A DNA stretch of 64,000 nucleotides, taken from Gemmatimonadota bacterium. GTDB taxonomy: Bacteria; Latescibacterota; UBA2968; UBA8231. Made by a program: the position numbers and the translations under genes. Below are positions 14,540 through 38,801 of this stretch, in pieces; positions within the stretch are counted from its first letter, which is position 1; each line of letters begins with the position of its first letter. The stretch spans positions 62,001 to 126,000 of the forward strand of contig JABHFS010000137.1 of NCBI GenBank assembly GCA_018672475.1, written 5' to 3'. The notes under the pieces were generated by a model. The model was given only the letters and a program-made list of their open reading frames with translations, did no database searches and had not been told where the DNA came from.

Positions 14540-15799
14540 TCAGTCGGCTAGTGGTTTGCTCCGGTTGCGGTATTTCGTCTCTTCGGTCGCCGGTATCGCG
14601 CCGGCCACCTTCACCGAATTATGCCCGTGTTTGCTCACACAGGGATACGCCAGATACTTGGGCTCTTCGGCGAGGTAGACCACCGCCGGTTCGTCCACTA
14701 GCGTTTCCAACGTCATCACGTCACCGACCTTGAGCTTGCGCGCGTCGGCGACTGAGATCTGCCCGGTGCCCAACTCGGCCTTGACCGGTAGTTCCATGCC
14801 GCCCATGCGCAAGCGGTTCTGTCGCAACAACTCAGCCTGATTCAGGCGTTTACTGCGCACATAGCTTTGCTGTCCCAAGCGCGGCAGAATCGACTCCAGC
14901 GTAAAGAAAGGATAGCAGAGACTGATTAAACCCGAGGCATTGGTTGAATTCACCTCGAAGGCCAGCAGGATCACGATCTCCGAAGCCACCGTGACCTGCA
15001 TAAACTCCGGGTTTGTTTCAAGTTCAACATCGGTAATCTCCACCTTCAGGATCGGCTCCCAGGTCGCCTCCAGATCCTCGATCATCTTCTTGACCAAGGT
15101 ATTCATCTCACCGATCTCAATAGGCGTCACCTGCCGGGCCTCGACACCTTGCGACGACCCCTTACCGCCAAAGGAACGATCGATCGTCGCGAAAGTCACC
15201 GGCATCGAGATATCGAGAATCGCCTGGCCATTGGTCGGCCCGAGCGTAAATTGATACGACAGCGCCGGATTGGACAGACTCATAATAAACTCGGCATAGG
15301 TCGTCTGGTCGACAAAGGCCGTGTCGACATCGACGACCGCTTGAAAGGTCTCCGACAACGTCGAGCTTAACAGCCGGGCGAAATTGTCGTGTAAATTCTC
15401 CAACATGCGCAACTGGTCTCTGTTGACGCGCGCCGGGTGTTTGAAATCGTAGGACATCACCATGGTTTTTCTCGCCTCTCTCGCTTTGTTTTCTTCTACC
15501 TGCCGCTTCTTGTCGGCTTGCTCGGCAATGCGCCCTTTGACTATCGTACGCAACCCGGTGCGCTGTCTCTTGCTAACGCCCTTACCTTCAATCGCCGCAT
15601 CGAGCGCCGCTAACGCGCTCTTTTCGCACGCATCAGCCTCCAGGTCGCTCATGCCCAAGCCATTTATTTCCCTGAAGAGCGTTGCAATTCCCTTGTTATC
15701 GACGCCGTATTTGGCCAAGCGATCCGCCAACGACGGCATATCGCCATCATTCGCCGACAGCAACGCGTCAATCTCTTGCTGTGACAGTATATCAGCCAT
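14540..15799 (-). CDS. fliM: Flagellar motor switch protein FliM with a long N-terminal insert
   Basis: C-ring protein that carries the CheY-P binding site and helps set motor direction. Residues 1-16 are the CheY-binding peptide (LSQQEIDALLSA). The middle domain begins at YDFKHPARVNRDQL (117-130) and contains TYAEFIMSLSNPALSY. The C-terminal SpoA domain (about 335-400) ends the fold with VGDVMTLETLVDEP. Between peptide and middle domain lie about 100 residues, much more than the usual linker, including a folded-looking stretch (KGIATLFREINGLGMSDLEA) and a basic helix. Length 419 against about 330 in the family. It is last in the cluster, 12 bp after fliG. Confidence 0.95.
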   Translation of the reverse strand: MADILSQQEIDALLSANDGDMPSLADRLAKYGVDNKGIATLFREINGLGMSDLEADACEKSALAALDAAIEGKGVSKRQRTGLRTIVKGRIAEQADKKRQVEENKAREARKTMVMSYDFKHPARVNRDQLRMLENLHDNFARLLSSTLSETFQAVVDVDTAFVDQTTYAEFIMSLSNPALSYQFTLGPTNGQAILDISMPVTFATIDRSFGGKGSSQGVEARQVTPIEIGEMNTLVKKMIEDLEATWEPILKVEITDVELETNPEFMQVTVASEIVILLAFEVNSTNASGLISLCYPFFTLESILPRLGQQSYVRSKRLNQAELLRQNRLRMGGMELPVKAELGTGQISVADARKLKVGDVMTLETLVDEPAVVYLAEEPKYLAYPCVSKHGHNSVKVAGAIPATEETKYRNRSKPLAD

Positions 15800-15811
15800 T
15801 TTATCGCTCCT

Positions 15812-17053
15812 CTATACCCACTGATCTTCGTCGAATTCACCCCGCACAATCGTCACCTCGCCCTTTTCCTCTAATTGGCGCACTTGCTGCACGATCCTAA
15901 GCTGCGTCTCTTCAACCTCCGACAGCCGCATCGGCCCCATAAGCTCCATTTCTTCGGTGATAAAGGTCCGCACCTTCTCCGACATATTGCTCAGAATTTT
16001 TTCTTTGAGTTCACCCGAAACCGCCTTCAGCGCGATAATTAAATCTTTCTGGTCTACTTCCTTCATCAGAACCTGGACTTCCCTGTCAGTCATTTTTTTA
16101 ATATCGTCGAATACGAGCATTAAATTCCGCACCGACTCGGCGACCTTCGGGTCCTGCGCATCCATACTGTCGAGCACATTCTTTTCGACGCTCGATCCCG
16201 TCATATTAAGCACATCGGCCACCACCTTAGGCCCGCCGACACCCTGCATCCCCTTGGCGAGGCGGCCGAACATGCGGTATATCGCCTGCTCGGCACGCTC
16301 GAGCACCTCCTCCGACACATCCTCCATCGTCGCCATGCGATAGGCCACATCCGACTGCATACGCTCAGGCAACCACGACAAAATCACCGCGGCATGGCCG
16401 GCTTGCAACTGCGATAGCAGCAGTGCGATGGGCTGCGGATGCTCGTGGCTGATATAGGGCGCGATCTGCCCCGGATCCATCTGCGCCAATAGTTTGAAGG
16501 CCGAGCCGGTGCTCATATCAAAGTTCTCCTCCTCGACCACTCTATCAGCCCACCACGGCGCCACCACCTCGCCCAACAGAGCCTTGGCGTATGCTGCGCC
16601 GCCAAGCTCCAGATATTCACCGCTCTCGATGCGCGAGCGCACGGTCTCTAACGCGTGCATGCCCGCGTTGTGCGCCACCTCTTTGAGTTGGGCGACGGCC
16701 TTGCCCATTTGTGCTGCCTCTTCGCGGTCTAGCCGCCCGAGCACTCGCACGCCAACCTCTTTGCCCGAAGCGACAAAGAAGGCCGCGACGATTTGCGAAG
16801 CATTCATGCCCGCCAGCGGCCCATCGCCCTTTTCGTCCCGATGTAGAATCGAACGCAAGACGGCCGCCGCTTCGTTGGCGTGTTGCCAGATATAGGCGTG
16901 GATGCTGCCTGCAGGAATCGTTGCGGACAGATCCGTGCCGGCGGGCTCTTCTGGCTCTAGCGTCCAACCGCGTGACACGGGCGCTGCCAACACCCGCACC
17001 TCTCCCAATTCTTCCTCACTTGGGAAGACCACTTTTTTTATTTCCGCGCCCAT
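15812..17053 (-). CDS. fliG: Flagellar motor switch protein FliG with N-terminal extension
   Basis: C-ring protein linking the MS ring to FliM and to the stator. The middle domain has the EHPQ motif at 204-207 (SHEHPQPIALLLSQLQ), and the C-terminal domain has the torque helix region DDIKKMTDREVQVLMKEVDQ and GPMRLSEVEETQLRIV. A FliG N-domain-like part spans about 85-170, preceded by some 80 residues not usual in FliG (413 residues in total, against about 335). The start ATG overlaps the stop of the preceding fliN-type gene (TGATG), which couples their translation. Confidence 0.95.
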   Translation of the reverse strand: MGAEIKKVVFPSEEELGEVRVLAAPVSRGWTLEPEEPAGTDLSATIPAGSIHAYIWQHANEAAAVLRSILHRDEKGDGPLAGMNASQIVAAFFVASGKEVGVRVLGRLDREEAAQMGKAVAQLKEVAHNAGMHALETVRSRIESGEYLELGGAAYAKALLGEVVAPWWADRVVEEENFDMSTGSAFKLLAQMDPGQIAPYISHEHPQPIALLLSQLQAGHAAVILSWLPERMQSDVAYRMATMEDVSEEVLERAEQAIYRMFGRLAKGMQGVGGPKVVADVLNMTGSSVEKNVLDSMDAQDPKVAESVRNLMLVFDDIKKMTDREVQVLMKEVDQKDLIIALKAVSGELKEKILSNMSEKVRTFITEEMELMGPMRLSEVEETQLRIVQQVRQLEEKGEVTIVRGEFDEDQWV

Positions 17054-17316
17054 CAGCTCACCTCCTCGGGATAAAGGGTCAGCGAGGTAACGCGCACCGC
17101 CATCAGATCGGTGACGACCACGACCTCTCCTTCCGCAAAGAGATGGCCATTGAGGCGAATCTCAAAGGCCTCACCGGCCAACTTGTCGAATTCGATGACA
17201 CTGCCGACTGCTAGTTTGCGCGCCTCGGCCAACGTCAATCCTTTGCGCGCCGCCTCACAGCACACTTCAACCGCCACATTGCCCAGATGCGCCAAGCGCT
17301 CCTTCTCCTGGTTCAT
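17053..17316 (-). CDS. FliN/SpoA-type flagellar switch protein, short form
   Basis: 87 residues covering one SpoA (surface presentation of antigens) domain: LTLAEARKLAVGSVIEFDKL, then EIRLNGHLFAEGEVVVVTDL and a hydrophobic last strand. FliN forms the base of the C-ring. The N-terminal 10-15 residues replace the usual acidic FliN leader. It lies between a second fliN-type gene and fliG with nearly no spacing, so the cluster encodes two different FliN-like subunits, comparable in principle to the FliN/FliY or SctQ-type pairs of other systems. Confidence 0.88.
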   Translation of the reverse strand: MNQEKERLAHLGNVAVEVCCEAARKGLTLAEARKLAVGSVIEFDKLAGEAFEIRLNGHLFAEGEVVVVTDLMAVRVTSLTLYPEEVS

Positions 17317-17319
17317 AGC

Positions 17320-17637
17320 CTATACCTCCTCCAGGACCTCGGTGAGCCGCACGCCAAAATTCTCCCCCACGGTCACAATTTCACCGCGGGCAAAGAGCTT
17401 CCCATTGAGCAGAATGTCCACCGAATCGCCAACTTTCTTATTTAGCTCGATAAGCGACTGCTCGCCGATATTGAGCGCTTGGTCTAGCGTTATGCGCGTG
17501 CGCCCCAACTCGACCGAAGCCGTCAACTGCACCGTGTCAAGCGCGTCGATATTGTCCTTGGCCAGCGCCGGAGCCGTCTGCTTGGTGGCTGGAGCCTTCT
17601 TCGTCGCTTTCTTCTTTACAGCTTTCTTCGTCGCCAT
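17320..17637 (-). CDS. fliN: FliN-type flagellar motor switch protein with Lys/Ala-rich leader
   Basis: 105 residues. The C-terminal 75 form a standard FliN SpoA domain (VQLTASVELGRTRITLDQAL, then SVDILLNGKLFARGEIVTVG). The first 27 are a Lys/Ala/Thr-rich leader (KKAVKKKATKKAPATK) unlike the acidic leader of most FliN and similar to disordered histone-H1-like tails. This is the better FliN candidate of the two. It is 3 bp upstream of the short FliN gene. The upstream reading frame of the broken FliG-C gene runs into its 5' part, but the two do not share a frame. Confidence 0.92.
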   Translation of the reverse strand: MATKKAVKKKATKKAPATKQTAPALAKDNIDALDTVQLTASVELGRTRITLDQALNIGEQSLIELNKKVGDSVDILLNGKLFARGEIVTVGENFGVRLTEVLEEV

Positions 17638-17667
17638 AACGCCATCCCCTTCTATTGTAATTGTCGC

Positions 17668-17968
17668 CTAAAACTGAATCTTGCCTTGTTCCGCCATCGT
17701 TATACATATGCATAACGATCCGCGCCTGTGAATCGAGTATCTGCCCCGGCTCGCAGCGCACAAGGCCAACTTCTTCACTGATAAAGACCTGCACCCGCTC
17801 CGACATATTGCACAAAAATTTCTCCCGCACCGCCGAGCTGACGCCCTTTAAAGCAATCACCAAATCACGCTGATCAATCTCACGCATCGACTGCTCGATG
17901 ATCTCGTCCGCCAATTCGACCAGCCCTTCAAAATCCAATGCCCGATCCAACTGCTCGACAGGATCCAT
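17668..17968 (-). pseudogene. Stand-alone FliG C-terminal domain, frameshifted at the end
   Basis: From ATG 17968 the frame gives a FliG C-terminal domain without N and M domains: LVELADEIIEQSMREIDQRD, LVIALKGVSSAVREKFLCNM and SERVQVFISEEVGLVRC, alignable to residues 310-395 of the intact FliG. In this frame the reading then runs on past QARIVMHM to 17537, into fliN. In the neighbouring frame the expected FliG ending appears, MAEQGKIQF followed by TAG at 17668-17670. A one-base indel near 17700 therefore breaks the gene, unless it is a sequencing error or a programmed shift. Confidence 0.7.
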
Positions 17969-18336: not shown

Positions 18337-19161
18337 TCAGCTCTTGGGGCGATAGGCCCGAAATAAATCCCGCTGCTCGTCCGTCAGCCGCGCAAAAGTC
18401 TCCGGCGTGATATGTTGCTGCTCGTCCATCGTCGCAATATTCTGCGACATCAGCCAATATGGACCATAGCCCACATGCAGCGTTTTACGTACCTGGTCGG
18501 ATCGATTGATCAAACCGCCGTGGCGCAGATTTTCGGTAAAGAAGATCGCATCCCCCGCCTTGACCTCCAGCCCGATCATATTCGGGTCCTCGTCGGGATT
18601 ATTGCTGTGCGGCGAAGGTAAATTGGTCTTGTGCGTGCCCGGCACGACACAAAAGGCGCCCTGCTCATTGCTGCAATCGTGGAGAAAATAAACCATCCGT
18701 ACCATCATACAGTCGATGCCGCGCTCGGTATAACTATAGCGGTATTTTTGGCTGGCGTTGACCGTGCCGCCGTGACAACCGGTGGAGTTGCCCTTATAGC
18801 GGATGCGGATCTCGGAGTTGTTGATCGTCGGCCGCTCCTTGACGATACCGTTGACATAATCCATCGTGCGCGGATGGTCGAGCAACACATCGAAGGCCGG
18901 ATCGGCGCTCCAAAAATCCTCGACCATCAGCGTCTTGCCCTCCGCCCGTTCGCCATTAGCATGGTAACCGCGCTCGGGGTTGGCATAGTAATTGGCACCC
19001 CAACCGCTCGTCTTGCGCGGCGACTCGTCTATACGCGCCAGCGCATGTTCTTCTAAATCGTCTACCGCCGCGGCCAAAGACGCGACTTGTGCCGCCGTCA
19101 ATAGGCCCTCGATCACGATATAGCCCTGGCGGTCGAATTCAAATGTCTCGATCTCATTCAT
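18337..19161 (-). CDS. PhyH-family Fe(II)/2-oxoglutarate oxygenase homologue, H-G-G variant
   Basis: 274-residue protein with the double-stranded beta-helix fold of the phytanoyl-CoA dioxygenase family. The first metal-ligand site reads C-H130-G-G instead of H-x-D/E. The second ligand His is in ENLRHGG (H214) and the 2-oxoglutarate-binding Arg is probably R225 (QVRKTLHVGYG). The supporting motif FCVVPGTHKTN is intact. Loss of the carboxylate at the third ligand is seen in Fe/2OG halogenases (H-x-A/G), but may also just mark a subfamily. It lies 5 bp downstream of an amidohydrolase, same operon; SD GGAG before ATG. Confidence 0.9.
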   Translation of the reverse strand: MNEIETFEFDRQGYIVIEGLLTAAQVASLAAAVDDLEEHALARIDESPRKTSGWGANYYANPERGYHANGERAEGKTLMVEDFWSADPAFDVLLDHPRTMDYVNGIVKERPTINNSEIRIRYKGNSTGCHGGTVNASQKYRYSYTERGIDCMMVRMVYFLHDCSNEQGAFCVVPGTHKTNLPSPHSNNPDEDPNMIGLEVKAGDAIFFTENLRHGGLINRSDQVRKTLHVGYGPYWLMSQNIATMDEQQHITPETFARLTDEQRDLFRAYRPKS

Positions 19162-20115: not shown

Positions 20116-20191
20116 GGCCCGTTCGTCTAGAGGCCTAGGACGCCGGCTTCTCACGCCGGTAGCACGGGTTCGAATCCCGTACGGGCTACCA
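20116..20191 (+). tRNA. tRNA-Glu (anticodon CTC)
   Basis: A full 76-nt cloverleaf. The acceptor stem pairs GGCCCGT with ACGGGCT (one G-U), the D arm is GTCTAGAGGCCTAGGAC as in bacterial tRNA-Glu, the anticodon stem CCGGC/GCCGG holds loop TTCTCAC with anticodon CTC, and the T arm is ACGGG-TTCGAAT-CCCGT. The CCA end is encoded. A terminator follows 8 bp later. The low-GC island begins directly downstream, and tRNA 3' ends are common integration sites. Confidence 0.97.
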
Positions 20192-20457: not shown

Positions 20458-20646
20458 ATGATCCGCTTCAAGGAGGAAGCTCTTGAAAAACTGCTAGAAG
20501 AGCGCAAACCCCATTTTAGTTCCCACACCTATCAACACCTCCAAAAAATCATAGCTCGAGGCGCAAAGGGCATTGACCCCAACACGCTGTCCCGTCTCTG
20601 CGGTGATCTCGAGTGCTTGCCCAACGATATTGTCGAATACCTATAG
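20458..20646 (+). CDS. Small XRE/HTH_26-type DNA-binding protein
   Basis: 62 residues ending in the hallmark of the HTH_26/YozG-like group of Cro/CI-type regulators: TLSRLCGDLECLPNDIVEYL (43-62), with a shared start MIRFKEEALEKLLEER. The middle (TYQHLQKIIARGAKGIDPN) should hold the recognition helix but is less typical. It is probably a phage- or island-type regulator, and it is the first gene after the tRNA. AAGGAGG lies inside the start of the frame rather than before it, so the start is not certain. A terminator follows at 20755. Confidence 0.72.
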   Translation: MIRFKEEALEKLLEERKPHFSSHTYQHLQKIIARGAKGIDPNTLSRLCGDLECLPNDIVEYL

Positions 20647-20754
20647 CTCGCATTCGTCCAGACCTATTTTTTCATAAACTCTTGTGCAATCCCCGCTGAA
20701 GCGATCTGGCGGAGTTTCCCTTTAGTATCCAATAACGGGGAGTATGCAACCTTG

Positions 20755-21225: not shown

Positions 21226-22146
21226 TTAATCTTCCTCCAAACGCACGATCATCTCATCTATATCAAAATTGGGGTTCTCTAACTCTTCGGCCATATGGGC
21301 AAAACTTAAAAGCGACTTACTCTCCCCTATAAAGTCAGCGGATACTAGGAGGTCTATATCTGCTCCACCTAGCCAGAGTAGCACATTGTCCTGCGATGAG
21401 CTTAGAACAAAAAGAATGCCAATGCTACTTTCCCCAGTATAGAATTCGTTGGTGAAAACATCTACACTATGATCATATTTTACCAACTCGGTTAACTCTT
21501 CATCTGAAATCGCCGGCACGACATCGGTCGCCTTTGCTATAAGATCCCATGTTTTATCTGACTGGCGAAAAACAGCTACGTCGGTGCTTTCATAAACCTT
21601 GCTTAAGGTATCGACGATAGTAGTACAGGCCTCATCTATACTTTGTATTCCAATCTTATTTCGGATCAATTCATTGAAGATCTCTAACTCTCTGGCATAT
21701 ACTTTCATTTGTTCATTGGCAGCCATTAAGTCACGATTGGCCACAAACAATTCGCGTCGGAGTAATTCTCTCTCTAAATGTGCACCAACTCGAGCGCGGA
21801 CTTCGCCCACATTGAATGGCTTGGTGATATAATCAGTCGCTCCTATCGCAAAGCCGCGTTCTTTGCTAGCGATATCGGTCAATGCCGTTAAAAGCAGTAT
21901 AGGGATATGACGAGTCGATTCGCGTTCTCTCAAACGCTTACATACTTCATACCCATCAACATCGGGCATCATAATATCAAGAAGGATCAAATCGGGAACA
22001 GATTGCTCCACTAGATCAAGGCATTCTTGACCTCCAGATGCACAGGTAATATCATACGACTTGCGAAGTGCCAGATCTAGCAAATTGTTATTCATTTCCT
22101 GGTCATCAACACACATGATACGTAGTCGGGTAATTTCTTTTTCCAT
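21226..22146 (-). CDS. Response regulator with coiled coil and GAF-like output domain
   Basis: 306 residues. A receiver domain (about 8-125) has the acidic pair in CVDDQE, phospho-acceptor Asp in LILLDIMMPDVDGYEV, Thr in LLTALTD and Lys in ITKPFNVGEV. A coiled-coil linker (130-165, HLERELLRRELFVANRDLMA) leads to a GAF-like domain (DEACTTIVDTLSKVYESTDV and following). There is no DNA-binding or enzymatic output. It is the last gene of the signalling operon, 92 bp after the large FapA gene, and probably passes the signal by protein contact. Confidence 0.9.
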   Translation of the reverse strand: MEKEITRLRIMCVDDQEMNNNLLDLALRKSYDITCASGGQECLDLVEQSVPDLILLDIMMPDVDGYEVCKRLRERESTRHIPILLLTALTDIASKERGFAIGATDYITKPFNVGEVRARVGAHLERELLRRELFVANRDLMAANEQMKVYARELEIFNELIRNKIGIQSIDEACTTIVDTLSKVYESTDVAVFRQSDKTWDLIAKATDVVPAISDEELTELVKYDHSVDVFTNEFYTGESSIGILFVLSSSQDNVLLWLGGADIDLLVSADFIGESKSLLSFAHMAEELENPNFDIDEMIVRLEED

Positions 22147-22238
22147 ATCTGCCTTTAATTAAATACTAATTTGCGTAAATGTTAAAAAAGAATCGCAGGG
22201 GGTGACACTGCCATGCCAATCTTAAGTGAAAAATCAAA

Positions 22239-24797
22239 TTATTCGGGTCGATTATCCATCGAATTATATTCAAACTTTTGACCTTTCGTTTCACTCTCGA
22301 TTTCCCGATAAAGGTTAGCTATCCTCACTATAACACCTTCATTTACTTTATCTGTGATAGATATAATGCCATTTTTCGCAAGCGGTTCGTAATGCTCCCT
22401 TAGTTCAAGAGCAGCACTAAGCGACTGTTTTATCATGTTCTTCATCTTTAGAATCTGTTCAATCTCGTTCTTAACTTGAGATTTTCGATCACCGGCTTCT
22501 CTTAATTTGCGAGTGATAATCTCTTTATTTACCTCAGTAATCCCAAGTGAGGTACATAGATTTTTTGTCCTTAACTCCCATTGCTCTATTTGCTTATCAC
22601 TTTGGTCAAGACGCATCTGCACACTTAAAGGCATCTCAATACTAAGTTCTGTTTTTGCTCCTCCCGTCGAACCCGCGATCTTGGTATCAATACCTTCAGT
22701 TGCACACGTCCGACCGCCAACAATACTTCCCCCTCCCTTACCCGCACCCTGTAAAACTACGACCCTTTTGTCAGCCCTTAGATTCGCATTATACACATAA
22801 GCAGCTATTTCAATACTGGCACCTGACAGTACAGTGCTTTCTTGTACAAGTTTCGTGATGAGATTGCCATGTGTTACTACTTTCGTCGTCTTACCGATGA
22901 TGCCTTGAGTGATCTCTATATCACCTTTCGAAAAGACATATGCACCGGGCTCAACCATCCCTCCAATAAGGACATTACCACCAGAGCGCACCTCAAATCC
23001 CGAACCAACATTGCCTTTTATTTCAATATCTCCCGAGACATCTAAATTGCCAGTTCCATAATCAACATTGCCTTCAACGGTAAACACCTCACTTACGTGA
23101 ATTGAATTTTCGCCAACATGCAAGTTTCCAAAGATCGTCGCATATAACTGCTGGTCGCCTTCTTTAGAATCACCAGTCGCAGCAGGGTCCGCAGCAGCAG
23201 GATCCGCAGAATCCGCAGCAGCAGGGTCCGCAGCAGCAGGATCCGCAGCAGCAGGATCCGCAGCAGCAGGATCCGCAGAATCCGCAGCAGCAGGGTCCGC
23301 AGCAGCAGGATCCGCAGAATCCGCAGCAGCAGGGTCCGCAGCAGCAGGATCGCCACCCGTGGCTTTACCGACACGGATATTTTCACCGATTTCGATATCA
23401 ACCTTCTCGACCTCGTTTGCAACTACTGGTTCGTCATATATATTTTTTCCATCAATTTTTGGAGTAGCCGAGATTAAAGTTGCGACGAACTCATCAGCAT
23501 CAATTTTTGTTACCGAATTTCGCTCTTTGTAATCAATTCGACCATCCGTTTGCACGGTGCCATGGCGAACATCGATGTCTTTCTCACATATCAACATGAT
23601 GGGCTTAGCATCTATAGCGCGTTCACCTTCGACTAACTTAAGCACCATGACTTCCTTGCCTGTATTCTGTATATCTGCAACTTTTTCTATCGCAGTTTCA
23701 ATAATACCGTGCCGTATACCCATCTTGTTTAACCATTTCATCACAACTTCAGTATCGCGCAATGGGGCAGCAGAAGTCTGAGTGAGTAGAATCAAATACG
23801 CCTGCATCTTATCCTCACTTACCCATATCGGAGGTATTATACTTAGATGTCCCTGGCAAACACAGACATACCCACTTAGGTCGGCAACTAAAAGGCCAGC
23901 ATCCTCTAATTTTACGTTTTCACCGACTTCCATCTCAGCGCTCTTGCCTTTTACCCGATCCTCTTTACCCCATAGGTCTCTTCCTGGGAACCCTTCCTGA
24001 GGTGGATGTATTTTCGCCACTTTATCGCCAGTGGCCACTAAAACACCCTGCAATTCCAGCATTTCGATTTCGTTGATTTCACTGAGAGCAAATGCCGAGT
24101 GAGTAGAACTACAACTACCCTCGATTTGGTCTGGAATCGTTAACCATTCTACATATCCGTCTGCTCCCGATTCCGGTATTTCCCCACAAGCAATTTGGAA
24201 GCGCCCTTTAGCCTCAGCAGTCTTTTCCGCATGCATATTGTCCCAAATATCCTTGAACACCACTACATCTACATCTATTGCTTCATCGATTCCAACGTCT
24301 TTGCGCAATAGCGTCTCAAGCAAATCGAGATCTGAAGACATATCACTGAGGGAAGGCAGACGCAGTTCTAACAGCCAGAGGATACGCTGATCAGGAGATA
24401 CTTCTATTACAATTTCTCCATCACCCTCGGCAAAAGGGTAGTGTCTTATATCTTCTTTTTTTTCACCAGCATCGCTATCATCCGTCTTCCCCTCAGTTTC
24501 TGCCCCTTCCTTAGTTTCTGCCCCTTCCTTAGTTTCTGCCCCTTCCTCAGTTTCTGCCCCTTCCTCAGTTTCTGCCCCTTCCTCAGTTTCTGCCCCTTCC
24601 TCAGTTTCTGCCCCTTCCCCCACTTCCACAAGGCTTTCGCTCTCTTCTATTAATTTTGTTAGCTCCGACTCTAGGGATTCTAAACCATCTGAACCTTCTT
24701 GCGAAAAATTCTGCCAGTATAAATCATCGACCGCTTTTTCGCGTTGATTTTTCGAGTTCCGTCCACGCACATTTTTCTTGCTAGAATCCCGATTCAT
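22239..24797 (-). CDS. FapA/DUF342-family protein with two internal repeat tracts
   Basis: 852 residues. The DUF342 (FapA) signature is visible: an N-terminal region with MGIRHGIIETAIEKVADIQN, then a right-handed beta-helix part with repeated turns (VEGNVDYGTGNLDVSGDIEI, GNVLIGGMVEPGAYVFSKGD, ITQGIIGKTTKVVTHGNLIT), then a C-terminal coiled coil. Two low-complexity tracts interrupt it: seven EGAETE units (61-102) and a DPAAA/DSA tract (about 482-540) set inside the core. Usual FapA length is 450-650. In Vibrio, FapA is reported to affect polar flagellar assembly. Here it sits in a two-component operon with a second FapA. Confidence 0.88.
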   Translation of the reverse strand: MNRDSSKKNVRGRNSKNQREKAVDDLYWQNFSQEGSDGLESLESELTKLIEESESLVEVGEGAETEEGAETEEGAETEEGAETEEGAETKEGAETKEGAETEGKTDDSDAGEKKEDIRHYPFAEGDGEIVIEVSPDQRILWLLELRLPSLSDMSSDLDLLETLLRKDVGIDEAIDVDVVVFKDIWDNMHAEKTAEAKGRFQIACGEIPESGADGYVEWLTIPDQIEGSCSSTHSAFALSEINEIEMLELQGVLVATGDKVAKIHPPQEGFPGRDLWGKEDRVKGKSAEMEVGENVKLEDAGLLVADLSGYVCVCQGHLSIIPPIWVSEDKMQAYLILLTQTSAAPLRDTEVVMKWLNKMGIRHGIIETAIEKVADIQNTGKEVMVLKLVEGERAIDAKPIMLICEKDIDVRHGTVQTDGRIDYKERNSVTKIDADEFVATLISATPKIDGKNIYDEPVVANEVEKVDIEIGENIRVGKATGGDPAAADPAAADSADPAAADPAAADSADPAAADPAAADPAAADPAAADSADPAAADPAATGDSKEGDQQLYATIFGNLHVGENSIHVSEVFTVEGNVDYGTGNLDVSGDIEIKGNVGSGFEVRSGGNVLIGGMVEPGAYVFSKGDIEITQGIIGKTTKVVTHGNLITKLVQESTVLSGASIEIAAYVYNANLRADKRVVVLQGAGKGGGSIVGGRTCATEGIDTKIAGSTGGAKTELSIEMPLSVQMRLDQSDKQIEQWELRTKNLCTSLGITEVNKEIITRKLREAGDRKSQVKNEIEQILKMKNMIKQSLSAALELREHYEPLAKNGIISITDKVNEGVIVRIANLYREIESETKGQKFEYNSMDNRPE
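23176..23351 (-). repeat. In-frame DPAAA/DSA tandem repeat in the large FapA gene
   Basis: About 176 bp built from 15-bp DPAAA units and 9-bp DSA units, in the order 2+1, 2+1, 4+1, 2. Units are nearly identical at nucleotide level (GCAGCAGGATCCGCA on the plus strand), with much higher GC than the surrounding gene. All unit lengths are multiples of 3, so gains and losses keep the frame. Confidence 0.93.
24492..24617 (-). repeat. In-frame 18-bp tandem repeat (EGAETE x7) in the large FapA gene
   Basis: Seven consecutive 18-bp units differing only at one position (C/T, giving Glu or Lys in EGAETE/EGAETK). The tract makes a strongly acidic, probably disordered N-terminal arm. Near-identity of the units points to recent slippage. 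Confidence 0.95.
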
Positions 24798-24885
24798 ATT
24801 ACCCTACATTTGGTTGGCAATAAATTGGCAATAAAATTAATCATATCGCTATTTTATGCTATCGCACACATATCAGTTGCCTAAA

Positions 24886-26349
24886 CTACGTGAGTTTGCT
24901 AAAAGCATCGCTGATAATCAATTTCATCTCGTTGTTGTCCCAGGGTTTAGGGATCAACGTATAGACATCAGCTTCGGAAAAAATACGCGACAACATCTCA
25001 TCATCAGCATACCCAGTGAATGCAATACGTCCAATATTTGGAAAGCGCGCTTTCACCTTATTTAGAAATTCTAACCCATCCATATGTGGCATACGGATAT
25101 CAGAGACGACTAAGTCCACATCATGATCTTCTATGATTTCTAATCCTTGCATGCCACTATTGGCAAATAGGAGATTCCAATTCTGCTTGCGCAATAAACG
25201 CCGCACCGATGATAGCACCTTCGTTTCGTCGTCAACGAATAGCACGGTACGCCTACCTGGCTTTACAATATTTAGCGTATCACCAAACCGTTTAGAGTAA
25301 GTATCTTGCGGTAGATTCGCAGCTTCGTTCGTTTTATCGTCCAGTTCATCCAGAGGTCTATCATCCCAATACTGAAAGGGCAATACGAGTTCAAACTTAC
25401 TACCGGAACCATCCTCACTTTCTACCTGTAAACTACCTTTCATCACATTTGCCCATCGCAGAGCTATAGCAAGTCCTAAACCTGTGCCACCATAACGACG
25501 TGTTATCGTACCATCGGCTTGTGCAAATGGAATGAAAATTTGATCAAGTTTTTCCCTTGCAATACCAATCCCTGTATCCTCAACTGAAAATAGAAGACTT
25601 ATATCATTCTCCGTTTTGACGACACAACGAACTTCTAAACGAATAAAACCCCGATGAGTAAATTTCACTGCATTACTAAGTAGATTATTTAGTATCTGAA
25701 TCAGACGTCCAGAGTCACCTACTATAGATTCTGGAATGTCCTCTTCTAATTGCAGTATAAATTCGACCCCCTTGTTATCAGCCTGGACCTTAGATACGGA
25801 AACGCAGGAATCTACTATATCACGAATAGAAAAAACGTCGGAATTCAAAGTAGCTTGGTTTGCATCAATCTTTGATATTTCTAGTACATCATCTACCACT
25901 CTCGTTAGCTGATCCGACGCATTTCTTAAGATAGAAAAGGCTTCTTCTTGATCGATATCATCACTTTGTTCCGATAACAGCTGCACCGCACCGACAATGC
26001 CATTCATTGGCGTACGGATTTCGTGGCTAACATTGGCCACAAATTCACTCTTCATTCGATTTGCTAATTGGACTGCATCTAATGCCTTCCTCATTATAGC
26101 AAGAGAGCGTATTATAACCACCTGTTTCCTGCCTACTACACTAGCTAAAATACCTAAAATTAGTGGTGCTGTATCGATGATCCAGTGCAGCGACTGCGTG
26201 CGTTGCACTACCAGAATATTAGTAAAAGTGAAATCAAAATTGTGGGAAATAAGGTCTTGACACGTAGCTGCTATTGGAAATATGCAGCCAAATAAAAATC
26301 CATATGTTGCGTACTTAATGGTATATCTTCCAGGATCAACTGACTGCAT
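24886..26349 (-). CDS. Hybrid sensor histidine kinase with C-terminal receiver
   Basis: 487 residues. Two hydrophobic segments near 12-32 and 57-75 anchor it in the membrane with a short exposed loop. The HisKA domain holds FVANVSHEIRTPMNG (phospho-His near 113). The ATPase domain has NLLSNAVKFT (N box), VEDTGIGI (G1) and RRYGGTGLGLAI (G2). A receiver domain closes the protein: VLFVDDET, Asp in VVSDIRMPHMDG, and KPW. The FTGYAD motif in the receiver is typical of RpfG-type receivers. Between two FapA genes in the same orientation, it is likely co-transcribed with them. Confidence 0.95.
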   Translation of the reverse strand: MQSVDPGRYTIKYATYGFLFGCIFPIAATCQDLISHNFDFTFTNILVVQRTQSLHWIIDTAPLILGILASVVGRKQVVIIRSLAIMRKALDAVQLANRMKSEFVANVSHEIRTPMNGIVGAVQLLSEQSDDIDQEEAFSILRNASDQLTRVVDDVLEISKIDANQATLNSDVFSIRDIVDSCVSVSKVQADNKGVEFILQLEEDIPESIVGDSGRLIQILNNLLSNAVKFTHRGFIRLEVRCVVKTENDISLLFSVEDTGIGIAREKLDQIFIPFAQADGTITRRYGGTGLGLAIALRWANVMKGSLQVESEDGSGSKFELVLPFQYWDDRPLDELDDKTNEAANLPQDTYSKRFGDTLNIVKPGRRTVLFVDDETKVLSSVRRLLRKQNWNLLFANSGMQGLEIIEDHDVDLVVSDIRMPHMDGLEFLNKVKARFPNIGRIAFTGYADDEMLSRIFSEADVYTLIPKPWDNNEMKLIISDAFSKLT

Positions 26350-26539
26350 ATCTTGTCCTATATTTAGTTGACATAAGCTCTACACATCATAAAAACGCAG
26401 TTTGATACCCGTCACTCGCAATAGGGCTAACTTGCCTAGCGTGAAGTATGCGAGACCGACTAAACAGGTTGTGATAATTTGATGCAATTTCTTGATTCGT
26501 TGTTTTGTATGAAAAATAATTTGATTGCCATTTCATCCC

Positions 26540-28018
26540 TCAATCTTCTACATAGTGAATCGGTCCATTTACATCATTCAAGCGAAATTGCCCTTTTGCC
26601 AACTCTGTAACAGTCATAAATTTCAACTCACCGAAGCAAATTTGAACGCGAGGATATACGCTTCTACGTACTTTAATCTTAACTTGGGCAAATCCATCGC
26701 GTTGTGTCGTTACAATTCCTTTGATATGAAATTCTAAACTATTGCGTAATTTTTTTAGTTTTCTGATCTCACTCAATCGAGCGAGTAATACTTTGCGGCG
26801 CCCTTCAGGCGATTTTCGGATTGCTTTTTTCAACGTATCAGGCGTAAAATTTTGTCCAATCAACGTCTCGACCAACCGACTGGCTTGGCGACTACGCAGA
26901 TTGCAAAATGCAATGCCCTCGCGATAGCGGCTTAATCGATCTTCCATTTCCGGCTTGACACCAACGCGGACTAGGGTCTCTCGGTTATTTACACTGCCCA
27001 TAGACGGCACATCCAGATTTTGACTTACACTGAGTTCGCCCCCAGATAAATTAAGGGGGTTTTTCGCTCGGTTGTCTGTTATTATAGCATTACCTCCGAC
27101 AACCACCTTAGAGTCAGTTATATAATTTGTCACTCTCATCTCACTGCCAACATTCACCTTAGACTCTTGCACGTAAATCGAAAAAAAGTCGCCTCCGCAT
27201 TTTATCCTTGCACCGATAACACCACTGGACACTGCTAGGTCACCTTTGGCTAAAACTTTAGCACCCCGTTCAACCGAGCCATGCACTACAACATTGCCGC
27301 TCGCTTCGACACGAAAGCGACTACACACATCGCCAGTGATCTCAACATCACCATCAAATTTTATGTGACCAATGCGATAATCGACATCGCCATCGTGAAA
27401 GAAATAAGGCAGTACCGAAATAACCCCTTTATCGATTCTCGGCCATCCAGCCAGAACTGCATAGTATAAATTTTTATCTTCAGATTCTTCAATACGGACA
27501 TTGACGCCAGCCTTTAGAGTCGTAGGCTCTTTATCAGGTAAGGAGATTTCGCGAGCGAAAATATCATGACCCATTTGAATTTCTTGATCTAAAGATAGAC
27601 ATGCCAAAAGTTCGTTCTCTTTCGATTGCGGCACAGCATCACGAGAGCGAAAATCCATCGAGCCATCTTCTATCATTTTGCCAGGGCTCGGCAGAGACTT
27701 GAAATGGACCTCTAAAGAATTTGCCATCGAAGGGCTTGTACCTTCAGCCACCAGAAAACATTGGATTACCTCCTCTCCTTTCTGTACTGATTCTATCGCT
27801 TGTACAAACTCTGCCTCACGAATCCCATAGCAAATACCTTTCTCTTCTAATTTCTGTTCCACCAATTGCCAGGATATATTCGCGGTAACCGTATTGATAT
27901 GAGCCTGCATCCCATCATCAGAGATTAATATTTCCAAGGATAATTCAGGCAATTCGGCATCCGAGAGGTTTTCCAAGCCTTCTTTGAACGAAGCATTTTC
28001 AGCTAATCGTTTGTCCAT
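26540..28018 (-). CDS. FapA/DUF342-family protein, compact form
   Basis: 492 residues, within the normal range of the family and without the repeat tracts of its paralogue. Recognisable parts: EEKGICYGIREAEFVQAIES (N-terminal domain), beta-helix turns DVDYRIGHIKFDGDVEITGD, GNVVVHGSVERGAKVLAKGD and LAVSSGVIGARIKCGGDFFS, and a C-terminal helix ILARL-type segment with RKVLLARLSEIRKLKKLRN. The start lies 16 bp inside the upstream receiver gene, so translation is coupled. It probably forms a scaffold or sensor partner of the operon's kinases; that role is inferred. Confidence 0.9.
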   Translation of the reverse strand: MDKRLAENASFKEGLENLSDAELPELSLEILISDDGMQAHINTVTANISWQLVEQKLEEKGICYGIREAEFVQAIESVQKGEEVIQCFLVAEGTSPSMANSLEVHFKSLPSPGKMIEDGSMDFRSRDAVPQSKENELLACLSLDQEIQMGHDIFAREISLPDKEPTTLKAGVNVRIEESEDKNLYYAVLAGWPRIDKGVISVLPYFFHDGDVDYRIGHIKFDGDVEITGDVCSRFRVEASGNVVVHGSVERGAKVLAKGDLAVSSGVIGARIKCGGDFFSIYVQESKVNVGSEMRVTNYITDSKVVVGGNAIITDNRAKNPLNLSGGELSVSQNLDVPSMGSVNNRETLVRVGVKPEMEDRLSRYREGIAFCNLRSRQASRLVETLIGQNFTPDTLKKAIRKSPEGRRKVLLARLSEIRKLKKLRNSLEFHIKGIVTTQRDGFAQVKIKVRRSVYPRVQICFGELKFMTVTELAKGQFRLNDVNGPIHYVED

Positions 28019-29094
28019 TTTTCAGCCTCCCTTAAAACCTCATCAGCCACTCCCTCCCAGATCGGCAGATCTCTTTGTAATTGATGGCTATGTACCGCAA
28101 GAGCTATATACGAGATAAACTCCTTTAGTATACTGGTATCATCTACGCCAATTAAGAAATCCTTGCGTCTTCGTCCAACTTCAACCAGCCCAATCATATT
28201 TTGGTATCGCAATAACGGCAATATACAAAGACTACGAACGCCAAATCCTTCACGTACAAAGTCGACCTCTCTCTCATATACAGGAGTCTTTTGATCAAGT
28301 GCTTGTTTAATTGCTCTCGCTTTTGTCAATGATAAGGCTTGCAATTCCTCAACACGTAAAGGGGGAATTCCGTTGTATCTTGATTTTCGCAATTCTGCTA
28401 TTTCATCTATTTGAGCTAAATCTGTCAAACTCGATGTACTTTCAGGAGCAGAATTTAATCCCACAGCCGCGTAAGGAACAACATCGCCATTCGGTTCAAC
28501 CAAGTACAATACGCCAAAATCACTTTCGCATAGAATCAGAGTCAACTGCAACGCAACATATAGCGTTTGCTGTGTATCCTCTACGCTGAGTATCTGCCAT
28601 GACAAAGTATCTCGTGCTTTTAATTCCATAACTTTGCGATTCAGATCACTGGTACGCTCTCTAACTTGTAGCTCGAGATTGCGCTGGTAGGCTTTATTTT
28701 CAAGTATTAATCTGCGATGCTCTAATGCTCGCATTACAGTCGACATCATATCCTTTATGTCAAACGGCTTCAAAAAATAGTCATAAAAGTCATGTGCAAC
28801 CGCCAACCTTGCACTCTCTACGTCAGCGTAAGCCGTCATGAGGATTACGGGCCTATCCGGTTCATCTTCTAATAATTTTTGGCCTAGTTCTACTCCGCTA
28901 ATTCCGGGCATATTTAGGTCAGTGATGATTAAATCTATTGCTTGTTTTTCGGCAATAACCATTGCTTCTTCACCAGAACGAGCTACAAAAGCTTGGTGCC
29001 CAATTTCCTCAACTAGACGGAGCATTAGATCTAGATGATCGGGCTCATCGTCAACGACTAAAATTGCCGCGCCCTTCTCATTTTCATTCATCAT
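28003..29094 (-). CDS. Receiver-coiled coil-GAF response regulator
   Basis: 363 residues. The receiver domain (about 10-130) contains LVVDDEPDH, Asp in LIITDLNMPGISGVEL, Thr in LMTAYADVES and Lys in YFLKPFDIKD. A coiled coil follows (LENKAYQRNLELQVRERTSD), then a GAF-like domain (LCESDFGVLYLVEPNGDVVP and LCILPLLRYQNMIGLVEVG). There is no DNA-binding domain. Its ATG overlaps the stop of the upstream kinase by 4 bp and its end overlaps the FapA gene by 16 bp, so it is firmly part of the operon. The architecture matches the other regulator at 21226. Confidence 0.92.
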   Translation of the reverse strand: MMNENEKGAAILVVDDEPDHLDLMLRLVEEIGHQAFVARSGEEAMVIAEKQAIDLIITDLNMPGISGVELGQKLLEDEPDRPVILMTAYADVESARLAVAHDFYDYFLKPFDIKDMMSTVMRALEHRRLILENKAYQRNLELQVRERTSDLNRKVMELKARDTLSWQILSVEDTQQTLYVALQLTLILCESDFGVLYLVEPNGDVVPYAAVGLNSAPESTSSLTDLAQIDEIAELRKSRYNGIPPLRVEELQALSLTKARAIKQALDQKTPVYEREVDFVREGFGVRSLCILPLLRYQNMIGLVEVGRRRKDFLIGVDDTSILKEFISYIALAVHSHQLQRDLPIWEGVADEVLREAEKWTND

Positions 29095-31343
29095 GACTGT
29101 TGCCTTTTATTTTCACTCAAAGTTGAGTATACCATACTCGCTAATCTTCTACGATCTATGGGCTTCTCAAGCCATCCATCATTAAATTTCCGAGCCTGTT
29201 TCGGTAAGTCCTTATCCCCTAGATAACCAGACATAATTATTATTGGCGTACCTATGTTTCTCTCTGCCAAAGCAGCGCAAAGTTCTTCGCCTCCGACATT
29301 TGGCATTACGAAATCTGATAGAATCAGATCTATTTCATTTAGCCTATCATCGGATAAATCGAGCACTTCGCGACCATCTTCAGCACAGACCACCTGGTAG
29401 TTAAGGGTCTTCAAAAGCTTTTTAGTCGCGTCCCTAACGCTCTGCTCGTCTTCAACTACGAAAATGGTTTCCCCACTACCGATCGGAATTTTATCACTTA
29501 ATCCCTTATCGTTCTTTTTTTCATGCCGGGTAAAAGGTTCGCTAGAATGGTGCAAATGTCCAACATTGGAGGCATATTGTGGAAAGAAGATAGAAAACGT
29601 AGTTCCTTTATCGAGTATACTATCTACATGGATATGGGCATCGTGTTGTTGCACGATACCATGTACCTGGGCCATGCCCAACCCCGTTCCACCCGAGTCT
29701 TTCTTCGTTGTAAAAAAAGGTTCAAAGATGTGACTAACCACCTCATGAGTCATTCCACAACCCTCATCTGATATCTGTAATATAAGCCATTTTCCTGCAT
29801 CGAGGTCAGGCTGACGATTATCGATCGCAACGGCGGTATCTATATTTTGCAACCGCACTCCTAACACTCCCCCATGCGGCATAGCATCTCGCGCATTTAA
29901 CGCCAAGTTGGTGACTAGTTGCTGTATTTGTGTTACATCGCCTTCAATATTCTGCGATGCTACATCTAAGTCGAATGCAATTTCTATATTAGCAGGTAAA
30001 AGACGCTTAAGAAGCTTTGTTGTTTCCTTAACGAAAACCCCGAGCTCAATCACTTGCCGATTAACGACATTCTGACGACTAAAATCGAGGATTTGACGCA
30101 CTAGCTCATTGCCGCGCTGCCCTTGAGTGTAAATGCGATTAAGATCTTCCTTATATTTTTCAGCAATATCGTCACGTAGACACAATACCTGTGCAAAACC
30201 CATCATTACAGATAATATGTTGTTGAAATCATGTGCCATTCCAGCGGCCAATTGACCTATGGCAGCAAGCCGGTCTTGTCGCTTGCCAATTTCCAACATT
30301 TGACGTTCGCGGGTCACCTCCATAATACTAATCACGCTACCAGCACGCCCTCCATTGCGATCTATTGAGCTTGCAAATGCCTGAAAAATGCGGTTTGAAT
30401 TTGGCAATGGGATATCCTGAAACTTATCCCCTGTAAAATCCGCTATCATCTGCGCTAAATCTGCAGTCCCTATCGCTGTGATTGGATGCGAGCCAAAATC
30501 ATCACAAAATAATGAGAAATCTTCAGATGCCTGCTTGTTATATATAACTGGCATGTTGTTTGAGTCGAGCAAACAAATTCCATGTGGGAAGTTCTCAACT
30601 ATTGCATTTAACTCTGAATTGAGCTTGCTAATCTCTGCTGCCGCTTTAACCCTATCTGTTATATCTTGCCCTACACCAATGACACCGACTACGGACCCAA
30701 GGATATCACGACGTGTAGTCGAGTTGAGTAATACTACGATACGATCCCCTGTTTTCGTATAAAGCGGGAGTTCGTAGTTGGATGTTTCCTTTCCCTGCAA
30801 CGCTTCTTCCAGCACCAAGCGCGTGTGATGCTTGTAGTCGGCGGTGATGTAGGTCTCGACCAGGTCCTTGCCCAGCACTTCGTCTTTGCTGTACCCCGTG
30901 ATACGGGCAGTGGTCTGGTTCCACTCGTTGACTCGCCCCTCGGCATCGATGCCGAAAATGGGAGCATTGGCCCTATCGATCAACTGGGCCAGATCATTAG
31001 CTCTTTGTTCCGATACAGCATTGGCCTCCCTGCGTTTTGCAGAAAATAGTGACAGGACCACACCGAACCCCAAAAACAAGAAAAAGAAGATCGTACGGAT
31101 ATACATCTCAAAAGGTTCTATGTCATAAATGAGTATATCCCAGAATTCTTCTTGTTCGGAGAAAAATAACCAGTCCACTACCGAGTCTATAACCCATGCA
31201 AACAACCCAAACACAGCTGAGAGGCCAATAATCAAGTATTCGTCTTTCGCGCGCTTCACTTTGGGTGAAATGTAACCGCCCTTTTGCGCCGACTGATCCA
31301 ACTCTGCAGTACCTTGCTCTTTCATTTTATCCGTGTATTTCAT
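29091..31343 (-). CDS. Membrane PAS hybrid histidine kinase with C-terminal receiver
   Basis: First gene of the signalling operon, 750 residues. Two membrane helices lie near 35-60 and 88-103 (TIFFFLFLGFGVVLSLF). A PAS domain follows (about 115-235; IFGIDAEGRVNEWNQTTARI and GVIGVGQDITDRVKAA), then a second PAS-like segment (240-340). The kinase core has GMAHDFNNILSVMMGFAQ with the phospho-His, LVTNLALNARDAMP (N box), DEGCGM and GGTGLGMAQVHGIV. The receiver at the end has VVEDEQSVRD, LILSDFVMPNVGG and EKPID. The H-D-F-N-N variety is common in PAS hybrid kinases. The stretch encoding the first PAS domain is GC-rich, unlike the rest. Confidence 0.95.
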   Translation of the reverse strand: MKYTDKMKEQGTAELDQSAQKGGYISPKVKRAKDEYLIIGLSAVFGLFAWVIDSVVDWLFFSEQEEFWDILIYDIEPFEMYIRTIFFFLFLGFGVVLSLFSAKRREANAVSEQRANDLAQLIDRANAPIFGIDAEGRVNEWNQTTARITGYSKDEVLGKDLVETYITADYKHHTRLVLEEALQGKETSNYELPLYTKTGDRIVVLLNSTTRRDILGSVVGVIGVGQDITDRVKAAAEISKLNSELNAIVENFPHGICLLDSNNMPVIYNKQASEDFSLFCDDFGSHPITAIGTADLAQMIADFTGDKFQDIPLPNSNRIFQAFASSIDRNGGRAGSVISIMEVTRERQMLEIGKRQDRLAAIGQLAAGMAHDFNNILSVMMGFAQVLCLRDDIAEKYKEDLNRIYTQGQRGNELVRQILDFSRQNVVNRQVIELGVFVKETTKLLKRLLPANIEIAFDLDVASQNIEGDVTQIQQLVTNLALNARDAMPHGGVLGVRLQNIDTAVAIDNRQPDLDAGKWLILQISDEGCGMTHEVVSHIFEPFFTTKKDSGGTGLGMAQVHGIVQQHDAHIHVDSILDKGTTFSIFFPQYASNVGHLHHSSEPFTRHEKKNDKGLSDKIPIGSGETIFVVEDEQSVRDATKKLLKTLNYQVVCAEDGREVLDLSDDRLNEIDLILSDFVMPNVGGEELCAALAERNIGTPIIIMSGYLGDKDLPKQARKFNDGWLEKPIDRRRLASMVYSTLSENKRQQS

Positions 31344-33136: not shown

Positions 33137-33258
33137 ATGCCCATTCGAGGCTGAATCTGAATACCGCCCTATTTGATCCGCGTAGGCAGGATATGTAATA
33201 TACCTGTGCATTGCCCTTATCCGCAGAAAAATCGATTTCGCCACGGAGAACGACAACC

Positions 33259-34152
33259 ATGATCACCGACGCACAATTGACCGCATATGAAGAACAAGGG
33301 GCCGTAACAATTGACAGTCCCTTCACTGAACAAGAATTGGATCGAGCGGAAGCCGCCTGGGACCGCCTAAAACAAAATAGCCAACCGCCCTACGAAGACC
33401 CGGATTATATCGACATAATCCAGCACCCGTTTTTTGAGCAGGTCGCCCAAAAAGTATTGCGTGCCAATACCGTGCATTTATGGTGGGGTTTAGCCCCGCA
33501 TGAACGCGCGCCGTCCGAGCCGCCCTATGGCGATTATAAAGAGCAATGGGCACGCGGCTGCCACACCGATATTCAGGCTACATTGGAAGATTTCGAAGCC
33601 ACCCCCCGCCGGATGCGGGCCGAGCTGTGGTTTTGGCTCAACGACGTGCCCACCGACCGCGGCGCGATGCGCATCCTGCCCGGCAGCCATCGGCCGATCA
33701 TGGCGCACTGGAGCAAAGTCCTCACATCCGAACAAAAGACCGAACTACCGCGCGTGCACGGTTTGCGACCGATCCCGGTTCCCGATACGGCGACCGCCTT
33801 CCCCGAGCACGTGCCCGATCTAATCGACACGCCCTGGTCTGCATGCGAACCCACTCCCTTCGTCGCCAAACGCGGTCAGATTCTGATCTTTTGCAGCGCC
33901 GGCCTGCACTCGGCCTGGCAGAACGAAGACAGTGTGCCGCGCAAGGCGATGGGCACCTCGTGGGTCGCCGAGGGTGTATCTTGCGGGCTGCCGAAAAATC
34001 AGCGCGATGACGTAATGGACTTCTTCCCCAAACTGCGAGCGAAACTGCACCCGGATCGCGCGCATATCGCGCCAGACAATTTCGACTGGCTTTTTGAGAG
34101 CAACTATCAGCCGCAGTGGCCGGAGACTTTTCTGCCGACCGAAACCTCATAA
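33259..34152 (+). CDS. PhyH-family Fe(II)/2-oxoglutarate dioxygenase
   Basis: 297 residues from ATG 33259, chosen because GGAGAACG lies just before it; an in-frame start 48 bp upstream lacks a ribosome site. Metal ligands H102-T-D104 (RGCHTDIQ) and H217 (SAGLHSAWQN); Arg for 2-oxoglutarate probably R228 (SVPRKAMGTSW). RILPGSHRP is the usual turn before the second half. It likely hydroxylates a small organic molecule; the substrate is unknown. The gene converges on a methyltransferase with 9 bp between their ends. Confidence 0.92.
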   Translation: MITDAQLTAYEEQGAVTIDSPFTEQELDRAEAAWDRLKQNSQPPYEDPDYIDIIQHPFFEQVAQKVLRANTVHLWWGLAPHERAPSEPPYGDYKEQWARGCHTDIQATLEDFEATPRRMRAELWFWLNDVPTDRGAMRILPGSHRPIMAHWSKVLTSEQKTELPRVHGLRPIPVPDTATAFPEHVPDLIDTPWSACEPTPFVAKRGQILIFCSAGLHSAWQNEDSVPRKAMGTSWVAEGVSCGLPKNQRDDVMDFFPKLRAKLHPDRAHIAPDNFDWLFESNYQPQWPETFLPTETS

Positions 34153-38511: not shown

Positions 38512-38796
38512 ATGCCTGCCGTACAAGATATCCTCGTATTTTTCCAGACCACACCAGCACTCACCTCGCCCGCCGTCGCCTGGGCCCGCTACGAGGCCTC
38601 CAAAGGCCCGATCAGCGATCTAACCGAGGAAGACGAGCCCCCGTATGCAAACGCTTTGGCAGCGATGCGTGACGGATGGGAGGTCCTACAGATGTCCGAG
38701 CTGAAACACCGCTCAGCCGAAGAAGGCTACGACCTCGGCCCGCTGCCCTACCAGACGGTCTTGTCGAAGTTCAACGAAATGCAGGAAGAGGAGTAA
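38512..38796 (+). CDS. Small conserved-looking protein between two PhyH genes
   Basis: 94 residues from ATG 38512; the frame is open further upstream without a better start. The protein is acidic and helical, with VFFQTTPALTSPAVAWARYE, PYANALAAMRDGWEVLQMSE and a last stretch GPLPYQTVLSKFNEMQEEE. There is no signal or membrane segment and no family that I recognise. It ends 5 bp before the next PhyH gene, so the pair are co-translated. A role as a small partner of the oxygenase is possible but unproven. Confidence 0.75.
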   Translation: MPAVQDILVFFQTTPALTSPAVAWARYEASKGPISDLTEEDEPPYANALAAMRDGWEVLQMSELKHRSAEEGYDLGPLPYQTVLSKFNEMQEEE

Positions 38797-38801
38797 AGCC
38801 C

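Follow-up and report, generated by a model that had tools for sequence, protein, structure and literature searches.

The locus analyzed here raises the question of what two-component signaling proteins might have to do with FapA. The window, a stretch of 64,000 nucleotides from a bacterium of the phylum Candidatus Latescibacterota, contains two genes for FapA that stand among genes for two histidine kinases and two receiver proteins. FapA is found in many flagellated bacteria, and its action is poorly understood. In Vibrio vulnificus EIIA-Glc has been reported to sequester FapA away from the flagellated pole (PMC7914778), and FapA to be recruited by HubP (PMC12918733). According to the first-pass annotation of this DNA, the pairing of two FapA proteins with a complete phosphorelay is not known as a described system. 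We also found no description of it in the open-access subset of the literature; given that scope, the missing description is not proof of novelty.

Organization of the six-gene cluster

The six genes all lie on the minus strand between 21226 and 31343, in the order HK1, RR2, FapA1, HK2, FapA2, RR1, in agreement with the first reading. HK1 (29091..31343) is a membrane hybrid histidine kinase of PAS-HisKA-HATPase-REC architecture with the phospho-acceptor motif GMAHDFNN. It overlaps RR2 (28003..29094) by 4 nt, and RR2 overlaps FapA1 (26540..28018) by 16 nt, so these are the three genes said to be joined by their ends. The remaining genes follow after gaps of 190 nt (FapA1/HK2), 88 nt (HK2/FapA2) and 92 nt (FapA2/RR1). 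HK2 (24886..26349) is a second membrane hybrid kinase, HisKA-HATPase-REC, with the motif NVSHEIRTP. The description of both as hybrid kinases was borne out by Pfam, which places the HisKA, HATPase_c and receiver domains of each above cut-off; the remaining features were taken from the translations. FapA2 (22239..24797) and RR1 (21226..22146) complete the cluster. Its best reading is as a pair of modules in parallel, HK1>RR2>FapA1 and HK2>FapA2/RR1, each opened by its kinase. Upstream of the cluster we found no convincing sigma28 or sigma54 promoter, and sigma70-like sites there are at background level only.

Both FapA proteins match the beta-solenoid family PF03961 (DUF342) with 153.1 and 153.6 bits against a cut-off of 31 (E = 1.5e-44 and 1.1e-44), and FapA_N (PF20250) with 65.8 and 114.8 bits against a cut-off of 27. 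FapA1 comprises FapA_N, the beta-solenoid, a coiled coil and a C-terminal beta domain (Pfam and a structure model with pLDDT 85.3). The best match of its modeled solenoid, and its nearest solved fold, is the C-terminal beta-helix of MinC in the MinC:MinD structure (PDB 4v02; probability 0.99, rmsd 1.7 Å over 76 columns). FapA differs from MinC in adding the N-terminal region, the coiled coil and the C-terminal domain, and the matches to MinC_C (PF03775), at 24.6 and 21.2 bits, are below the cut-off of 33.2, placing neither protein in the MinC family. FapA2 is longer, at 852 aa, and has an additional FapA_N-like region as well as two repeat tracts of low complexity. The latter (23156-23381 and 24455-24636) are tandem repeats of 15/9-nt and 18-nt units encoding A/D/P-rich and AETEEG-type segments, and are possibly variable in length.

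The receiver proteins had both been described as receiver-GAF proteins. For RR2 Pfam gives REC and GAF (GAF 2.4e-5). For RR1 it gives REC alone, but the C-terminus aligns with the coil-GAF family of RR2, and a structure model (pLDDT 81.5) has a REC domain followed by a helix of 52 residues and an alpha/beta domain that resembles GAF. The original description therefore stands. The nearest PDB entries to the RR1 model include REC-GAF proteins, with 6ob8 and 6oaq giving the best whole-length match. These are fragments of a dual sensor kinase with REC followed by GAF as in RR1; that protein is a photosensory kinase, whereas RR1 and RR2 lack a kinase domain. Both receivers conserve the acidic pair, the phospho-acceptor Asp, the Thr and the Lys. 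Neither protein has an output domain beyond GAF in its sequence, Pfam matches or alignment, consistent with the earlier statement that DNA-binding and enzymatic domains are lacking.

fapA recurs beside receivers and kinases

Among 64 genomes of the phylum, 24 have matches to PF03961, with up to 11 per genome. The first-pass annotation had listed, first among what would refute its reading, a failure of the neighborhood to recur in other genomes. It does recur: of 38 FapA loci in the class, 23 carry a receiver or kinase gene at most three genes away from fapA. Within these loci receiver or kinase genes make up 47/194 of the genes near fapA and 6/155 of the distant ones, an odds ratio of 7.9 with p = 5e-8, a value that is indicative only because the genes and genomes are related.

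The receiver genes that adjoin fapA in the class have the coil and GAF region in common. Searching the 64 genomes with a profile of this region gave 27 strong matches, of which 25 lie no more than 3.7 kb from a fapA, all 25 on the same strand; one of the others is on a 5.4 kb contig. Since 19 of the 27 had been used to build the profile, the fair figures are that 6 of the 8 unseen matches are near fapA and that 0 of the best 24 matches below 50 bits are. RR2 (145 bits) and RR1 (122 bits) were both in the training set. If a FapA-linked REC-coil-GAF protein is defined by a profile match with a same-strand fapA within 5 kb, both belong to this group. A coil-GAF neighbor is present at 27 of 59 FapA genes and absent from about half. 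In 19 of 20 pairs fapA directly follows the receiver gene, at a distance of −17 to +60 nt; only RR1 departs from this order, lying downstream of FapA2. No fusion of FapA with a receiver occurs among the loci read. On the enrichment of receivers and kinases and the linkage of coil-GAF to fapA, a chance neighborhood is rejected.

The composition of the loci varies. In a relative (L105) two kinase-receiver-FapA modules face each other, and in other classes of the phylum a stand-alone receiver adjoins fapA (L092, L094). Regulators of the RR-HDOD, RR-HTH or sigma54 type are encoded in several sister modules as well, and at one locus of the class the neighbor is an alginate-export gene. In the source genome the third fapA locus (L032:1051-10619) reads H-NOX, HK, HK, RR, RR-HDOD, RR-GAF, FapA, RR, and thus opens with a haem-NO-binding gene. 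Among the mutants that a Borrelia screen lists as sensitive to nitric oxide is one in the DUF342 gene bb0267 (PMC5333916).

Beyond the phylum, the order in Haliovirga abyssi (Fusobacteriota) is solute-binding protein, REC-REC, HK-REC, FapA, and in Acetoanaerobium (L113) che genes and a sigma factor precede fapA. The fapA copies on Vibrionaceae plasmids instead neighbor type I secretion genes together with genes for an EAL-domain protein and a transglutaminase-like cysteine peptidase. A FapA profile scan of named genomes returned three Latescibacterota loci and no others, and a scan of genome contigs with a single protein gave no match, so the spread outside the phylum rests on plasmid records, which sample it thinly. 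The coil-GAF profile found no match in plasmids.

Kinases and receivers pair by type

The cluster had been said to carry a complete phosphorelay. In a multistep phosphorelay an HPt domain stands between the hybrid kinase and the response regulator, and Pfam finds none in the cluster. Several HPt domains are encoded elsewhere in the genome, all of them on other contigs. The completeness of the relay is therefore unsupported.

The type of kinase tracks the type of receiver over 12 loci. Six with RpfG-type receivers have HK1-like kinases, and six with PleD-type receivers have HK2-like neighbors; at L106 there are HK1-like kinases too, further along the locus. The receiver of RR2 clusters with the RpfG-type set in the receiver tree, and that of RR1 is PleD-type. 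By this rule HK1 would serve RR2 and HK2 would serve RR1. Taken with the lack of an HPt in the cluster, these sequence relationships fit two parallel modules of different subfamilies, HK1/RR2 and HK2/RR1. A recent tandem duplication of the two halves is rejected, because the halves fall in different subfamilies.

A second copy of the sensor part of HK1 (residues 34-210, 73% identical) is present at G000:C118:21463-21993 (L165) and reaches the end of contig C118. A further such module may be hidden at this assembly break.

The GAF domain, not the receiver, is inherited with FapA

We compared tree distances for 20 pairs of receiver-GAF and FapA proteins. Those of coil-GAF and FapA correlate with r = 0.76, or 0.86 without the window, whose FapA proteins and receivers are the most divergent members of their families. 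The receiver correlates weakly with FapA (r = 0.34), and as weakly with the coil-GAF region of its own polypeptide (r = 0.31). When partners were shuffled within genomes only, r = 0.76 was reached in 2 of 5000 trials. Raw p-distances gave 0.81 for coil-GAF/FapA, 0.60 for receiver/FapA and 0.56 for receiver/coil-GAF, and this order was reversed in none of 500 column bootstraps, even with coil-GAF trimmed to the length of the receiver.

Because a receiver is linked more tightly to the GAF domain that follows it than that GAF domain is to FapA, genetic linkage alone does not explain the agreement of the trees. The GAF domain is co-inherited with FapA, the receiver is not, and the kinase follows the receiver. 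In terms of these trees, the pattern is that of an exchangeable input, made up of kinase and receiver, joined to a fixed output, made up of GAF and FapA. Different kinase-receiver inputs have been attached repeatedly in evolution to one GAF-FapA output, which points to a candidate partner protein for FapA and to the domain concerned.

FapA is confined to genomes with flagellin

FapA, which the first-pass annotation linked to polar flagellar assembly in Vibrio, goes with flagellin genes throughout the phylum. All 24 genomes with FapA have flagellin and none of the 34 without flagellin has FapA, while 6 have flagellin without FapA (p = 2.4e-12, for genomes that are not independent and in several cases incomplete; G034 and G062 are counted as positive on weak matches only). 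Since groups lacking both flagellin and FapA are spread over several families, common descent is not the full explanation of the link.

In some genomes the two are physically close. In G041 (L098), from another class of the phylum, the order is motA, motB, fliL, fliM, fliN, fliO, fliP, an unassigned gene, fliR, fapA, an unassigned ORF, REC, flhB, and in G046 and G047 a cheZ-like gene, fapA and a single-domain cheY-like receiver follow one another. The fapA of L098 beside flagellar genes, and that of L113 beside che genes, resemble the flagellar superoperons of Borrelia and other lineages, in which fapA occurs with flgV, sigma28, flhF and flhG (PMC11607428). The window modules differ in standing apart, and in carrying kinases and receiver-GAF genes, which the passages of that paper do not mention.

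In the window fliM, fliG and fliN (14540..17637, minus strand; Pfam and NCBIfam) lie outside the modules, at least 3.6 kb from RR1. Close to fliM and fliG, the minus-strand interval 17053-17968 contains fliN (17320-17637), another short frame resembling FliN (17053-17316, E = 2.8e-10) and a truncated FliG_C frame (17537-17968) that overlaps fliN in a different frame. Judged by their sequences, these frames are duplicated pieces of switch genes.

A model for control of FapA and its alternatives

CheY is a receiver without a DNA-binding output that acts by protein contact on the flagellar machinery, at FliM. The receivers of the cluster similarly have no DNA-binding output, and a CheY-like gene stands beside fapA in two genomes as described above. 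The target that we propose here is different, FapA reached via a GAF domain, and hybrid kinases take the place of CheA as inputs. In our model HK1 or HK2 would sense a signal and set the phosphorylation of the matching receiver, RR2 or RR1. The receiver is joined by a long coiled coil to the GAF domain, the inherited partner of FapA, and phosphorylation would alter the binding of the receiver-GAF protein to FapA. The availability or location of FapA would change as a result, and with it the assembly, number or placement of flagella. We think it on balance likely that two parallel kinase/receiver-GAF modules act in this way on FapA to control flagella; we infer the phosphotransfer, the physical contact of GAF with FapA and the direction of the effect on flagella.

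The receiver-GAF protein would replace EIIA-Glc as the phosphorylation-dependent controller of FapA, with a two-component instead of a sugar phosphotransferase input. Comparing the logic only, V. vulnificus is alike in having a flagella-tied protein of the FapA family under the control of a phosphotransfer-type partner, as far as described in PMC7914778 and PMC12918733; the proposed controller here is instead an adjoining receiver-GAF protein with its own histidine kinase. V. vulnificus has one FapA per genome, whereas here there are several. If the model is true, two-component sensing would control the flagellum while bypassing both transcription and the CheY-motor switch, and the function of FapA could be approached via a dedicated partner rather than via a sugar-transport protein with pleiotropic effects.

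Some observations count against the model. As many as 11 FapA matches in one genome are unusual for a simple assembly factor, the RR-HDOD and sigma54-type regulators of sister modules could be the real outputs, and the divergence of the window members, the position of RR1 and the coil-GAF neighbor at only 27 of 59 FapA genes all weigh in the same direction. The first-pass annotation had suggested that the beta-helix proteins are scaffolds or outputs of the relay. If FapA were a passive scaffold, its solenoid and coiled coil would gather kinases, receiver-GAF and RR-HDOD proteins, and the signal would exit via another protein and not through the flagellum. The HDOD, HTH and sigma54-type regulators would then find a place, and many matches per genome would correspond to many separate clusters. 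We nevertheless regard this as rather doubtful, since FapA is confined to flagellin-bearing genomes, fapA lies within flagellar or chemotaxis gene sets in other classes, and the window modules encode no output protein besides FapA; FapA as the output is the best reading. It is unlikely that FapA is instead an effector of surface attachment or biofilm formation, with a motile lifestyle keeping both FapA and flagellin. The Vibrionaceae plasmid genes form a Lap-like adhesin set and the alginate-export gene could be read in the same way, but such neighbors are not recurrent in the phylum, the window cluster has no adhesin or export gene, and the link of FapA to flagellin is complete.

A single branched phosphorelay, as the first-pass annotation implied, would connect each hybrid kinase to each receiver by way of an HPt protein encoded at another site, and would make use of the C-terminal receivers on both kinases and of the HPt domains found on other contigs. 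Yet the cluster has no HPt, kinases and receivers pair separately by type in two halves of different subfamilies, and the kinases of several sister modules have no receiver domain, making such a relay improbable. That the neighborhood is meaningless, unrelated genes having assembled in a mobile low-GC island, is scarcely credible. The low GC content, the tRNA-Glu at the edge and the break in synteny do indicate a transferred block (see below), but the pairing recurs at many unrelated places with genes that overlap or nearly abut, and the trees agree; the recurrence tests have largely refuted this explanation already.

A broader form of the control model is more tentative. FapA might be the general phospho-output platform of the phylum, a MinC-like solenoid that receives many kinase-receiver inputs via the GAF adaptor, so that several signals, by neighborhood including that of H-NOX, converge on one flagellar decision. 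The repeated occurrence of fapA beside a sensor kinase and a dedicated phospho-switch protein does suggest that FapA passes a range of environmental signals directly to the building or placement of flagella. FlhG is described as a homologue of MinD (PMC11607428) and the FapA1 solenoid matches MinC best, so FapA may act on FlhG, and the decision might pass through it; this step is speculative.

Origin of the block and its surroundings

The cluster has a GC content of 43% and GC3 of 36-44%, against about 57% and 66-83% for its neighbors. The low-GC block starts at the 3′ end of a tRNA-Glu (CTC) gene (20116..20191, plus strand; ARAGORN, BLAST and GC), which forms its low-coordinate edge. Synteny with the congeners G001, G004 and G006 ends at 20191, with the tRNA kept in all three, and a contig of G008 also ends at this junction; synteny of the right flank restarts near 33245 in G001, G004, G005 and G008. 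Within the genus FapA is present in the source genome and G008 only, and the strong copy of the latter (L051) has no adjoining kinases. The third FapA locus of the source genome is likewise GC-poor (44-51% against 52-58%). Composition and gene order suggest that the cluster was likely gained by transfer. No integrase was found, and no empty site is demonstrable, the flanks being far apart in the single-contig G004 and the contigs of G005 and G008 stopping at the junctions or close to them.

The closest relative has next to its right flank (L157:2951-3341, G005:C750) a different low-GC kinase fragment, with 82 bp of similarity to HK1 where the contig ends. The site may thus be variable. Elsewhere in the window, phytanoyl-CoA-dioxygenase-like genes with sugar-isomerase-like neighbors were recognized by eye at 18337-19161, 33211-34152, 37568-38392 and 38676-39623. 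Between the tRNA-Glu and RR1, at about 20473-20660 on the minus strand, a frame of ~62 residues has by eye the appearance of a small Cro/CI-type DNA-binding protein.
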